Of a stretch of 64,000 nt of DNA, positions 29,026-33,882 are shown in pieces; within the stretch, counting starts at the first letter, position 1; every line of letters begins with the position of its first letter. The position numbers were made by a program, and so were the translations under genes. Below the pieces are notes generated by a model. That model was given only the letters and a program-made list of their open reading frames with translations. It searched no databases and was not told the DNA's origin. Location: NCBI GenBank assembly GCA_949293335.1, contig CASFDA010000031.1, forward strand, positions 1-64,000. The letters are read 5' to 3'. The stretch comes from an uncultured Spirochaetales bacterium. Its GTDB lineage: Bacteria > Spirochaetota > Spirochaetia > Sphaerochaetales > Sphaerochaetaceae.

Positions 29026-29607
29026 ATGGAAAACATCCTCATAGTCTCGAAGAATGAAAGGAAAAAGGACATTGCAAAGCTCTTTTCCCCAAAGAGCTAT
29101 GTTATCCTGCACACGGAGACTGTGAGGGAAGCTAAGAAGATGATCCTGGACAAGACCATCTCCTTGGTCATAATAGATTTCCCTACAGAAGGGGGCACTG
29201 TAAAAGATCTTCTGAAAGACGGAGTGAACACAAACCCGGACATGATCATTCTCACCCCGGGAAACCTGTACATTACCCTCTCTGCCCTGTACTCTAAATA
29301 TGGCCTGTATGTTATGCAGAAATCGGTACAGGAAAGGGAAATGCAGCTGTTGCTGCGACTTCTGGAAGTCAACAGGATAAAGCTTGGGGAACTTGCAGCA
29401 AAGAATGCAAGACTCCAGAAACGCCTGGAAGACGAGAAGATGCTCTCAAAAGCGAAATGCCTTCTCGCAAAAGAGAAAGGGATGAGCGAAGAAGAGGGAC
29501 ATCGCACCATCGAGAAGATGGCGATGAACAAAAGAATTGGCCTTTCTGAGGCTTCAAAGGAAATAATTCGAGATCTCAGTAGAGAGGGAGAAGGAAAATG
29601 GACATAA
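29026..29607 (+). CDS. ANTAR-domain antiterminator (degenerate receiver)
   Basis: This is a response-regulator-like protein. The N-terminal 110 residues have a receiver fold (ENILIVSKNERKKDIAKLFS, LVIIDFPTEGG), but the acidic pocket is incomplete, so phosphorylation is doubtful. A coiled-coil linker (ELAAKNARLQKRLEDEKM) leads to a C-terminal ANTAR domain (SKAKCLLAKEKGMSEEEGHR, MAMNKRIGLSEASKEII). ANTAR domains bind paired hexaloop hairpins and prevent termination in nitrogen genes. It lies 12 bases after GSI and overlaps GSIII by 10 bases, so it probably controls or senses this operon. Confidence 0.85.
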   Translation: MENILIVSKNERKKDIAKLFSPKSYVILHTETVREAKKMILDKTISLVIIDFPTEGGTVKDLLKDGVNTNPDMIILTPGNLYITLSALYSKYGLYVMQKSVQEREMQLLLRLLEVNRIKLGELAAKNARLQKRLEDEKMLSKAKCLLAKEKGMSEEEGHRTIEKMAMNKRIGLSEASKEIIRDLSREGEGKWT

Positions 29608-31670
29608 GCGAAATTTTTCAAAGCATGGTATTCAGTGACAAAGTGATGCGACGCATGCTGCCAGAAAAGGTATACGCTTCGCTCAAGAAGACGATGCTCG
29701 AAGGCACTGCCCTGGATGAGGGAGCATCAGATGTGATTGCCTCGGCTATGAAGGACTGGGCGATCTCCAAAGGAGCTACGCACTTTACACACTGGTTCCA
29801 GCCAATGACCGGAATCACAGCTGAAAAGCATGATAGCTTCCTTACATTCGAGAAGGACGGATCCCCTATCATGGAATTCTCGGGAAAGGAACTTATCAAA
29901 GGAGAGCCTGACGCATCATCCTTTCCTTCAGGAGGCCTGAGATCGACATTCGAGGCAAGAGGATACACAGCATGGGATCCGACGAGTTATGCATTTGTAA
30001 AGGATAACACCCTTTACATTCCTACTGCATTCTGTTCATTCAAAGGAGAAATCCTCGACAAGAAGACTCCTCTATTAAGGAGCATTGATGCACTAAGCAA
30101 GGAGTCTTGCAAAATCCTTTCCCTCTTCGGGCGCAGTGCGAAGAGAGTACAGGCCACGATAGGAAGCGAGCAGGAATATTTCCTCATTTCCAAAGATGAT
30201 TATGCAAAGAGACTTGACCTGAAGCTCACAGGAAGGACACTCCTTGGTGCCCACAGCGCAAAGGGCCAGGAAAAGGAAGATCACTACTTTGGTTCAATCA
30301 AGCCAGGGGTAAAAGCATTCATGAAAGAGCTTGATGAAGAGCTCTGGAAACTTGGTGTCCCATCCAAGACAGAACACAATGAGGTAGCTCCTTCCCAGCA
30401 TGAAATGGCGGCTGTTTTCGACAATGCCAACAAGTCTTGTGACGAGAACCAGATCACGATGGAGATGATGAAGAAGATAGCAGAAAAGCACGGCTATGCA
30501 TGTCTTCTCCATGAAAAGCCTTTTGAGGGAATCAACGGATCCGGAAAACACAACAACTGGTCCATTGCCGACGATCAGGGCAGGAACCTCCTCAATCCAG
30601 GAAAAACTCCGGCAGAGAATGCGGAATTCATGCTCCTTCTCACAGCTGTGATAAAAGCTGTCGATGATTATCAGGACCTGCTGAGAATTAGCGTTGCAAG
30701 CGCAGGAAACGATCATAGACTTGGAGCAAATGAAGCTCCTCCGGCAATCGTATCCATATTTGTGGGAGATGAACTTGGAGAAGTAATCTCGTCCATCATC
30801 GACGATCAGCCTCTCTCTGGAGACAAGAAGAAGCGAAGCATCGATATCGGCACGAGCGTACTTCCGAAACTTCCCACAGACAACTCCGACAGGAACAGGA
30901 CAAGTCCGTTTGCCTTTACAGGGAACAAGTTTGAATTCAGGATGCCTGGATCTTCCTTCAATACAGCTTGCATCAATGTAATGATCAATACAGCTGTCGC
31001 CGAATCACTTCGCGTGTTCTACGATGAGCTTGCAGGTGCAAAGGATTTCAATGCAACCTTGTCTGCTCTGATCAGAAGAGAGCTAAAGGCCCATCAGAGG
31101 ATCATCTTCAACGGCAATGGATACTCCAAAGAATGGGAAATAGAAGCAGAAAAGAGAGGACTCTCAAACTACAAGACGACTCCAGAGGCTGTGATACATT
31201 ACGATGATGAGAAGAATGTCGCACTCTTTGCCCAGCACAAGATCTATACAAAAGAAGAGATCATGGCCAGAAAGGAGATCGCGCTCGAAGAGTACGTGAA
31301 GACGATCAATATCGAGTGTGAGGTAATGCTGGAGATGCTCAAGAAGGAAGTCCTTCCTGCTGTGATTTCCTTCTCGAAGGATCTTGCGATCTCGGTTCGA
31401 GAGAAAGAAGCTCTTGGAATAGATACAACTGGAGAGAAGGCACTTCTGAAGAAAATCGGAGAAGAGGAGAACAAGCTGTTTGCTGCAGTATCTGCACTTG
31501 AAAGTGAAAAGGAAAATGCGTCAGATGATGTCACGAAAGAGGCATTCCACTCCTCAGAAAAGCTCATTCCTCTAATGGAAGAAGCAAGAAAACACTCTGA
31601 TGAACTTGAGAAGATAGTAGGAAAAGAGTACTGGCCATTCCCGACCTACTCTGAAATGCTCTTCAGGTAA
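29598..31670 (+). CDS. glnN: Glutamine synthetase, type III
   Basis: This is the large (690-residue) GSIII form found in Bacteroidetes, spirochaetes, cyanobacteria and some Firmicutes. Diagnostic stretches are THFTHWFQPMTGITAEKHDS, GSEQEYFLIS, HNEVAPSQHEMAAVFD, HEKPFEGINGSGKHNNWS and the ending EYWPFPTYSEMLF. Its start lies within the ANTAR gene and GGGAGAAGGAAA precedes the ATG. The presence of two synthetase types in one operon suggests different affinities or stabilities under changing nitrogen supply; this is inferred. Confidence 0.95.
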   Translation: MDISEIFQSMVFSDKVMRRMLPEKVYASLKKTMLEGTALDEGASDVIASAMKDWAISKGATHFTHWFQPMTGITAEKHDSFLTFEKDGSPIMEFSGKELIKGEPDASSFPSGGLRSTFEARGYTAWDPTSYAFVKDNTLYIPTAFCSFKGEILDKKTPLLRSIDALSKESCKILSLFGRSAKRVQATIGSEQEYFLISKDDYAKRLDLKLTGRTLLGAHSAKGQEKEDHYFGSIKPGVKAFMKELDEELWKLGVPSKTEHNEVAPSQHEMAAVFDNANKSCDENQITMEMMKKIAEKHGYACLLHEKPFEGINGSGKHNNWSIADDQGRNLLNPGKTPAENAEFMLLLTAVIKAVDDYQDLLRISVASAGNDHRLGANEAPPAIVSIFVGDELGEVISSIIDDQPLSGDKKKRSIDIGTSVLPKLPTDNSDRNRTSPFAFTGNKFEFRMPGSSFNTACINVMINTAVAESLRVFYDELAGAKDFNATLSALIRRELKAHQRIIFNGNGYSKEWEIEAEKRGLSNYKTTPEAVIHYDDEKNVALFAQHKIYTKEEIMARKEIALEEYVKTINIECEVMLEMLKKEVLPAVISFSKDLAISVREKEALGIDTTGEKALLKKIGEEENKLFAAVSALESEKENASDDVTKEAFHSSEKLIPLMEEARKHSDELEKIVGKEYWPFPTYSEMLFR

Positions 31671-31685
31671 AAATTCATTTCAAAT

Positions 31686-31718
31686 CCTTCTTGTTTACAG
31701 CAATGTTACAAGAAGGAC
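31686..31718 (+). terminator. Stem-loop after glnN
   Basis: TCCTTCTTGT and ACAAGAAGGA form a 10-bp stem; an inner ACA/TGT pair closes a GCAA tetraloop. The following CACTTTACTTTTC is only moderately T-rich, so it is an imperfect terminator or a 3'-end stabiliser. Confidence 0.55.
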
Positions 31719-31727
31719 ACTTTACTT

Positions 31728-31757
31728 TTCACAGGAAGCTGTTACCTTCTTTATAAG
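31728..31757 (+). promoter_or_regulatory. Promoter of the candidate ncRNA
   Basis: TTCACA (31728-31733) and TATAAG (31752-31757), each one base from consensus, are spaced by 18 bases. The start would be near 31764, at the beginning of the structured region. Confidence 0.5.
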
Positions 31758-31763
31758 AAAAAA

Positions 31764-31942
31764 AGTTCGGGAACTCGATTCCCGTGAAAAGATAAAGTCC
31801 TAGCCGTGAAAAATACAGAGAGAGGCGGCAAGGAAGTGCTCTTGAAGGGGAGCCGTGAGCTGACGGTATGAAAGCCTCCCAGCTAAGGCATGGATGAGGC
31901 GTACTCAGAAATCAGAAGGCTTTCCCTTGGAGCTTTTTTTTT
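31764..31942 (+). ncRNA. Candidate structured non-coding RNA, about 180 nt
   Basis: A non-coding stretch has its own promoter and ends in a T-run. The 5' end (31758-31773) can pair with the 3' end (31922-31940): an A-run with the T-run, GTTC with GGAGC, then GGGAA with TTCCC. Inside are a stem CCT-a-GCCG / CGGC-a-AGG (31799-31806 / 31826-31833), a two-part hairpin GGGAG-CCGT / ACGG...CTCCC (31848-31880), and TGAG/CTCA (31895-31907). CGGGAA at 31768-31773 can instead pair locally with TTCCCG at 31779-31784, so two folds compete. I recognise no Rfam class. It may be a free RNA or a riboswitch-type leader; a second promoter just downstream favours a free RNA. Confidence 0.45.
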
Positions 31943-31946
31943 CTTC

Positions 31947-31976
31947 TTGACCAAAATAATGTTTTATGAGGATAAT
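31947..31976 (+). promoter_or_regulatory. Promoter of the EIIC-like gene
   Basis: TTGACC (31947-31952) and GATAAT (31971-31976), each one base from consensus, are 18 bases apart. It lies just after the T-run that ends the candidate ncRNA and about 90 bases before the EIIC-like start codon. Confidence 0.6.
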
Positions 31977-32068
31977 CGCACCAACGGAAGCCTGCCTTGG
32001 CATTGAAAATGATGACAAGCTGTCCTGCTATCCGAAATCCAGAAGAAATTTTATCGGAGAGAAGGACG

Positions 32069-33094
32069 ATGCCTTTGGATAAAGAAAAGGGCATTGGCTC
32101 AAGTGTGGTCAATGTACTTAACGGCATGGCCCAGGGACTTTTTTCATCCCTTATCATCGGGCTCATCATCAGTCAGATCGGAACTTATGCGAACATCAGC
32201 TGGCTTACTCAATTCGGCAAGATCGCACAAAGCCTCACAGGACCGGCCATCGGAATCGGAGTTGCCTGGAGCATCGGGGCGAAGGGACTTTCCCTCTATG
32301 CCTCAGCAGCAGTCGGAGCAATTGGCGCAGGAGCTATAAAGATTGCAGAAAGCGGAGCAATGACCATCTCCGCAGGAGAGCCATTAGGAGCGTGTATAGC
32401 TGCGCTCGTTGGGGCATATATTGGAAAGAAGATCACGGGAAAGACAAGAGCCGATATAATCCTCGTTCCTCTGATAACAATCCTTTCAGGAGGACTTACA
32501 GGTCTGTTCATATCACCTGTAGTCTCTGCACTGATGAACGCCATTGGAGCATTCATAAACAGCCTCACTACACTCTATCCACTCCCAATGGGAATCCTGG
32601 TTTCAATCGTAGTCGGAATGGTGCTCACTCTCCCGATCAGTTCAGCGGCAATCTGCATCTCACTTGGTCTTGACGGATTAGCAGCAGGAGCTGCATGTGC
32701 AGGTTGTGCAGCACAGATGATTGGATTTGCATTCATGAGCTACAGGGAAAACGGAATAAGCGGGATAATCAGTCAGGGGCTCGGTACTTCGATGATCCAG
32801 ATTCCGAATATCTGGAAGAACTGGAAGATCTGGATTCCTCCAACGCTTGCAAGTGCAATCACGGGACCGATATCGACATGTGTTTTCAAGATGACAAATA
32901 ACGCATCGGGAGCGGGCATGGGAACCAGCGGACTTGTCGGACAATTCAACGCTGTCGCCAAAATGGGAACTGGAGCCATTCCACAAATCATACTGGTACA
33001 CTTCATCCTTCCTGCGATCCTTTCGGTACTCTTCTGTATCTGCATGAGAAAGAAAGGATGGATCAGGGAAGGGGATCTGAAACTCAGCGTGTAG
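32069..33094 (+). CDS. PTS EIIC-like membrane protein (PfoR/COG3641 family)
   Basis: This integral membrane protein has about ten helices rich in Gly and Ala. Stretches such as NVLNGMAQGLFSSLIIGLI, AAVGAIGAGAIKIAESGAM and LPISSAAICISLGLDGLAAGAA match the PTS_EIIC_2/PfoR group. No IIA or IIB domain and no phosphorylation-site cysteine or histidine domain is visible, so it may be a transporter outside the PTS. The ATG at 32069 has GGAGAGAAGGA upstream; the frame opens at 31997. The next gene follows after 17 bases. Confidence 0.8.
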   Translation: MPLDKEKGIGSSVVNVLNGMAQGLFSSLIIGLIISQIGTYANISWLTQFGKIAQSLTGPAIGIGVAWSIGAKGLSLYASAAVGAIGAGAIKIAESGAMTISAGEPLGACIAALVGAYIGKKITGKTRADIILVPLITILSGGLTGLFISPVVSALMNAIGAFINSLTTLYPLPMGILVSIVVGMVLTLPISSAAICISLGLDGLAAGAACAGCAAQMIGFAFMSYRENGISGIISQGLGTSMIQIPNIWKNWKIWIPPTLASAITGPISTCVFKMTNNASGAGMGTSGLVGQFNAVAKMGTGAIPQIILVHFILPAILSVLFCICMRKKGWIREGDLKLSV

Positions 33095-33111: not shown

Positions 33112-33882
33112 ATGGAAATCATCGCCCGCAGAGTATTCACCCTGCCATACATATTCCTGGACAGTGCGTTCCTTATTCTTCTGTTTTTGCTTCTTATATG
33201 GAAGAAAAGGTACATGACAACCATTGTCGGATTTGTCATGGGGATTGTTTACATGGCAGTTGATTATGGGATCTTCCACTTGCTTCTCAAAACCAGATCA
33301 ATTAGCGGTGGAAGCCTTTTCTGGACTCTTCTATGGATGTCAATGAGCTATGGGTTTACGAATTTCGTATGGATATGGCTCTATCTGAGAAAAGATGAAT
33401 TCCTTTTTGAATTCTCATTCCTGATAATCCTCTGGTGGTTCACCTGCCCTATCATATCGTCTTTTTTGGGAAGAAATCTTGAGCCAATCACGATAGAACG
33501 GACAACAGGGGCATACCATTTCTACATGGCAATAATACTCTTTCTAGGATACGTGTTCACAATAATGTGGAATCTGAAAAAGGAGAAGAAATACAGGATA
33601 GATATTCCTCGCCTCCTCTTCATAGGCATAGTTGTACAGTTTGCCTGGGAGGCGTCCCTGCTTCTCGGAGGGATCAGAAGTAGCGGATTATCCCCAGCAG
33701 AAAGTCTCTCCACCCTTGTCGTCAATTCGCTATTGGAGACTAATCTGGGAATGGGGTATGTATATGCCATCTTCATAGGGATAACCGCAAAAGTGACAGA
33801 GAATCTGAAAAGAAGAAACATATCTCTTGCATTCAGAGAACGGATAGAAGAGAACAACAGGGAAAAAAGCGTATCAGTCTAG
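33112..33882 (+). CDS. Hypothetical integral membrane protein
   Basis: I do not recognise a functional family. The 256-residue protein has six or seven hydrophobic helices, many aromatic residues (SYGFTNFVWIWLYLR, LWWFTCPIISS) and a charged C-terminal tail. It follows the EIIC-like gene by 17 bases and probably shares its transcript, but the function is unknown. Its end overlaps the convergent ABC ATPase gene by 9 bases. Confidence 0.8.
   Translation: MEIIARRVFTLPYIFLDSAFLILLFLLLIWKKRYMTTIVGFVMGIVYMAVDYGIFHLLLKTRSISGGSLFWTLLWMSMSYGFTNFVWIWLYLRKDEFLFEFSFLIILWWFTCPIISSFLGRNLEPITIERTTGAYHFYMAIILFLGYVFTIMWNLKKEKKYRIDIPRLLFIGIVVQFAWEASLLLGGIRSSGLSPAESLSTLVVNSLLETNLGMGYVYAIFIGITAKVTENLKRRNISLAFRERIEENNREKSVSV

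Follow-up and report, generated by a model that had tools for sequence, protein, structure and literature searches.

The 398-base gap (31671–32068) between the end of glnN (31670) and the ATG of pfoR (32069) was found to carry two separate RNA elements, named RNA-A and RNA-B, in the window, i.e. the whole 64,000-nucleotide stretch of DNA analysed. They probably represent two independent plus-strand RNA units, a stand-alone RNA-A and a pfoR leader, RNA-B, whose transcription and function we infer from the sequence. Neither matches a described RNA family and both are candidates, RNA-B being the better supported discovery: it is most likely a genus-specific, cis-regulatory, riboswitch-like leader with a putative switch, and RNA-A is most likely a rare stand-alone small RNA of presumed function. 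The gap had already been described in the initial annotation as a 398-base gene-free region between glnN and an EIIC-like gene, and no convincing gene was found inside it; the initial annotation missed RNA-B (31986–32033), the best conserved RNA of the gap, and the fact that positions 31768–31784, when taken on the minus strand, read like a T7 terminator. The genes around the gap and the elements associated with pfoR were as follows.

29598–31670, plus strand: glnN, type III glutamine synthetase, the upstream neighbour (GSIII_N and Gln-synt domains of Pfam; 47 of 48 genus genomes have an ortholog)
31685–31718, plus strand: terminator-like hairpin 3′ of glnN with a weak U-tract (10-bp outer stem, −15.3 kcal/mol)
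31947–31976, plus strand: pfoR promoter TTGACC-18-GATAAT (promoter scan; similar boxes before most genus orthologs)
31986–32033, plus strand: RNA-B, predicted structured pfoR leader, GGARGCC...GYYAUCC stem-loop (27-sequence alignment, with two-sided changes in 8 of 13 pairs)
32056–32059, plus strand: GGAG, likely pfoR ribosome-binding site (from sequence; position kept in most orthologs)
32069–33094, plus strand: pfoR, PTS_EIIC_2 membrane protein (Pfam PF13303, E 7e-105; orthologs in 27 of 48 genus genomes)
33112–33882, plus strand: membrane protein, family unassigned (its ortholog in genome G001 lies directly 3′ of the G001 copy of RNA-A)

The mechanical caller gave a longer pfoR ORF, but ortholog alignments mostly start within residues 10–35 of it, and the pfoR start was therefore placed at ATG 32069 rather than at TTG 31997. 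The 33112–33882 protein had no Pfam or NCBIfam match. It was also observed that a gene for an ANTAR-domain regulator (29026–29607) sits between a glnA-like gene and glnN, just ahead of the latter.

Alignment of the regions before pfoR orthologs revealed a conserved stem-loop, GGARGCCUUCG...GCGRUGUCYUGYYAUCC, which in the window lies 3′ of the conserved TTGACC-GATAAT promoter, just outside the region covered by the initial annotation. This element, RNA-B, is a stem-loop of 48 nt in which an A is bulged out and a UCCU/UCU bulge is conserved; it was present before pfoR in 27/27 genus orthologs (48 genus genomes searched), and its covariance model found one copy per genome, ahead of pfoR, the match in the window being at 31974–32040 (E 6.5e-15). 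In the alignment of 27 sequences, 95.2% of cells were paired and the covariation score was 0.418, versus a mean of 0.199 for shuffled and 0.02–0.21 for slid alignments. Pair 17-59 (alignment columns) switched from A-U to G-C in 11 distinct sequences, and at pair 29-43 (alignment columns) U-A, C-G, G-C and A-U all occurred. The genes flanking pfoR vary between species while RNA-B remains, which indicates that RNA-B belongs to pfoR.

Beyond the genus, RNA-B was absent before the PfoR genes of other spirochaete families, and the weak model matches (G173, G446, G481 and G226) were judged to be due to chance, as all of them lie over long open frames that are not pfoR. RNA-B had no match in Rfam at gathering or relaxed thresholds, and no publication describing a leader RNA of PfoR turned up in literature searches. 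In one other spirochaete genus the PfoR genes share a different leader, TTACGTTTG-N-GATGACC...CAAGTATATCAA (L144-L147 and L150-L153), for which there was no Rfam match and a quick consensus fold gave no structure.

RNA-B would be transcribed from the conserved TTGACC-GATAAT promoter as the 5′ leader of pfoR and, on sensing a ligand or a protein, would most likely control the pfoR messenger at the level of translation or stability. Since no terminator was visible, and the structured part stops 22 bases ahead of the GGAG ribosome-binding site, such control appears likelier than attenuation. The 3′ strand of the basal stem could pair with the ribosome-binding site (UCC/GGA), to which it is complementary; strand and site from one species matched no better than those from different species (p about 0.14 and 0.3), and the expected anti-Shine-Dalgarno pairing showed no within-species covariation. 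RNA-B resembles the orphan riboswitch candidates and structured bacterial leaders in being a compact covarying stem-loop with invariant bulges, placed between a promoter and one gene and moving with that gene, but differs from them in matching no Rfam class and in being confined to one genus and one gene. That RNA-B is instead a protein-binding leader, i.e. the site of an RNA-binding repressor and not a metabolite riboswitch, we regard as a substantial possibility somewhat short of even: it is a short single stem-loop with one copy per genome, a monocistronic target and a distribution limited to one genus, whereas its strongly conserved internal bulges resemble small aptamers and no candidate protein was found. 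We know of no established substrate for PfoR/PTS_EIIC_2 proteins, and with RNA-B as a constant partner of pfoR, whatever alters its folding would hint at what PfoR handles.

RNA-A lies upstream of the pfoR promoter, with the following features.

31728–31757, plus strand: candidate RNA-A promoter TTCACA-18-TATAAG (5/6+5/6 match; no equivalent found at the G001 counterpart)
about 31764–31942, plus strand: RNA-A, candidate stand-alone small RNA, ends predicted (fold z −2.17; promoter spacing and T9 run; no Rfam match)
31768–31784, no strand assigned: local hairpin CGGGAACTCGATTCCCG (pair probabilities 0.78–1.0; the minus-strand reading is a T7 terminator in the scan)
31839–31932, plus strand: conserved hairpin of RNA-A (homolog L033:1176-1262 in G001; all 18 pairs present in both, 3 of them with two-sided changes)
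31860–31871, plus strand: invariant strand CTGACGGTATGA (identical in G001)
31900–31911, plus strand: invariant strand CGTACTCAGAAA (identical in G001)
31934–31942, plus strand: T9 run, predicted terminator tail after the RNA-A hairpin (from sequence)

Both promoters named in the initial annotation, TTCACA-18-TATAAG and TTGACC-18-GATAAT, were present, and two 5/6+5/6 sites within the gap were seen in 0 of 1000 dinucleotide shuffles. The T-run that it had pointed out is the T9 at 31934–31942, which follows the long hairpin. Its folded region of 180 nt was upheld in part: the fold (−60 kcal/mol) exceeded shuffled sequences modestly (z −2.17; 5 of 200 shuffles equally stable), but the "paired ends" (GAAAAGA with the U-run) were weak A-U/G-U pairs only. 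The bistable 5′ end did not hold, as the fold that joins GGGAA to the 3′ UUCCC was 6.6 kcal/mol worse, with a probability of 0.0, and the pairs of the local hairpin had probabilities of 0.78–1.0. The RNA-A promoter lies within the span of a long inverted repeat, CTTTACTTTTCAC (31720–31737) and GTGAAAAGATAAAG (31780–31798); in G001 the equivalent place is occupied by a shorter TTCACA/TGTGAA pair.

Searching the 48 genus genomes by blastn gave one notable match to RNA-A, in G001, with an E value of 0.001 that was calculated for that genome and is not decisive given that 48 were searched. The G001 copy is immediately 5′ of the ortholog of the window gene 33112–33882, and a chance match is therefore very unlikely. 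Two 12-base strands, CTGACGGTATGA and CGTACTCAGAAA, are identical in both genomes and followed by [TC]CAGA, so that 24 core bases are unchanged between the two species; the remainder has diverged. The outer and inner helices are rebuilt from other bases, with 36 of 36 cells pairing and 3 pairs changed on both sides, the invariant strands themselves being incapable of showing covariation. Cells were paired to 100% in register versus 42–56% when slid, and flank shuffles folded as well in 10 of 2000 (G001) and 33 of 2000 (window) cases; a two-sequence shuffle control was weak (62 of 500). Covariation of the stems in relatives, a point raised earlier, was thus seen as compensatory changes at a syntenic place, but in only one other genome. 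By this comparison RNA-A appears to be a genuine structured element, for which there is one conserved relative. The spacing between CTGACGGTATGA and CGTACTCAGAAA differs by 7 bases between the window and G001, so that a reading frame is not kept, and a small protein gene in RNA-A was rejected on this ground.

The invariant strands can pair in two ways that differ by no more than 2 kcal/mol, either CUGA with the second CAG together with UGA/UCA, or CUGA/UCAG together with GUAUG/CGUAC; two sequences are too few to choose between them. The strands would form a conserved internal-loop or bulged-helix element, most likely a platform to which a protein or another RNA binds.

At the 3′ side, an intrinsic terminator was recognised in both species, as the hairpin and T9 in the window and as a hairpin with T6 downstream in G001, by eye and folding; the pattern scan (loops of 3–8) lists neither. 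The G001 RNA-A hairpin itself has only a UUUU tail, and the separate hairpin-T6 terminator (−17.7 kcal/mol) lies between the RNA-A copy and the gene; in the window, pfoR and its own promoter stand between RNA-A and the 33112–33882 gene. RNA-A resembles intrinsic terminators in having a hairpin followed by T9; it differs in that the hairpin is 94 nt long with two invariant internal strands and that the U-tract in G001 is separate from it. That the hairpin is simply an elaborate terminator of glnN readthrough, having no function of its own, is suggested by the long hairpin followed by T9 in the window, but a terminator does not need 24 invariant internal bases, the tail in G001 is UUUU with a separate terminator 3′ of the hairpin, and glnN already has its own hairpin at 31685–31718; we consider this reading quite improbable.

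Slightly less improbable, though still unlikely, is an origin of RNA-A as a transcription attenuator (a riboswitch-like leader) of the 33112–33882 gene family, with the pfoR unit inserted later in the window and cutting the link. Hairpin, terminator and gene are indeed consecutive within about 190 bases in G001; however, 12 other genomes carry the 33112–33882 gene without RNA-A, and promoter-like boxes, judged by eye, frequently stop right before the ATG of this gene, as though it were leaderless. A stand-alone RNA-A is favoured because different genes follow it in the two species, with terminators in between. It would be transcribed from its own promoter and end at the U9 run after the long hairpin, these transcript ends being predicted. 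Of the promoter and terminator of its own proposed in the initial annotation, the T9 terminator stood, but no TTCACA-TATAAG-type promoter was found at the G001 locus; the candidate RNA-A promoter is a good match to the consensus but is not conserved.

The minus strand was also considered, and a small chance is left for an antisense unit because the local hairpin of RNA-A reads there as a T7 terminator (31784–31758). A functional minus-strand transcript ending at this terminator, which came from the scan of that strand, would be in keeping with the folding of the reverse strand (−29.9 and −28.3 kcal/mol), but on that strand the G-U pairs of the covarying helix turn into A-C mismatches, and no equivalent minus-strand T-run was visible in G001, so that we judge it very unlikely.

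RNA-A is known from two genomes, that of the window and G001, and the closest named record sharing it is an uncultured Spirochaetaceae bin. A 22-base pattern searched in about 85,000 species genomes, a collection that may omit the window's own record, matched G001 solely, and the covariance model, run on 139 genomes of the order, yielded no other credible copy; its weak matches in G009, G119 and G127 were rejected for lying inside coding sequence. RNA-A was not found in relatives at the loci around glnN, pfoR or the 33112 gene, and a loose motif pattern gave fewer matches than its reversed control. The 22-base pattern had no match in viral contigs, nor was RNA-A matched in phages and plasmids, and a phage or plasmid origin was rejected for these reasons. 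With one other genome only, a family conserved across many relatives is not supported, and RNA-A is either rare or diverged past the reach of these methods.

The link to nitrogen metabolism proposed initially was not borne out, since glnN orthologs elsewhere in the genus have no RNA-A downstream, no ANTAR hexaloop target was found and glnN has its own terminator-like hairpin; a glnN-linked regulator was rejected on account of the absence of RNA-A 3′ of these orthologs in genus relatives. ANTAR-target RNAs consist of two tandem hairpins with A1/G4 hexaloops. The ANTAR-domain protein encoded just ahead of glnN recalls the leader RNAs of the NasR/AmiR type, but tandem hexaloop hairpins are absent from the whole window and an ANTAR target was thus rejected. 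RNA-A as a leader of pfoR was likewise rejected, as a promoter and a leader of its own precede pfoR, and the G001 pfoR is on a different contig.

Comparison of RNA-A with the 4227 families of Rfam, at gathering and relaxed thresholds, gave no credible match. Few small RNAs have, to our knowledge, been described in this bacterial group; RNA-A would add a small-RNA family to it, within the limits that a two-species distribution sets on such claims. That RNA-B is a new small riboswitch class sensing the PfoR/PTS_EIIC_2 substrate and RNA-A a separate new small-RNA family with an invariant internal-loop pair is, taken together, a tentative proposal that we hold to be doubtful.

6S RNA binds sigma-70 RNA polymerase and templates pRNA. 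RNA-A resembles it in size (about 180 nt) and in its long irregular hairpin, but had no match to RF00013 at E up to 10, and a 6S-like RNA of the genus occupies another conserved locus. The Rfam 6S model gave weak matches in 13 genus genomes, all under the cut-off (best 26.6 bits, versus a gathering cut-off of 46.4 bits). Inspection of 10 loci showed that 8 (L154-L157 and L159-L162, G001 included) belong to one family of 169–185 nt with the pattern CTCTTGGAGCAAACC...CCTTG[AG]AC...GTTCAAGAGC, whose members mostly have related genes as neighbours; L158 and L163, the remaining two, were unrelated to it. The G001 member is at C27:6955-7139, away from the RNA-A copy on C20. RNA-A is therefore not 6S, an identity rejected on the missing Rfam match and the separate locus; the initial annotation had called its branched interior unlike that of 6S. 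For the window's own genome, Rfam detected no 6S RNA. The 6S-like RNAs of the genus are likely to be missed by standard annotation. As a lead only, complementarity was noticed between GCTCTTGAA (31838–31846) of RNA-A and the conserved TTCAAGAGC of these 6S-like RNAs, with a chance probability of about 0.1 by rough estimate.
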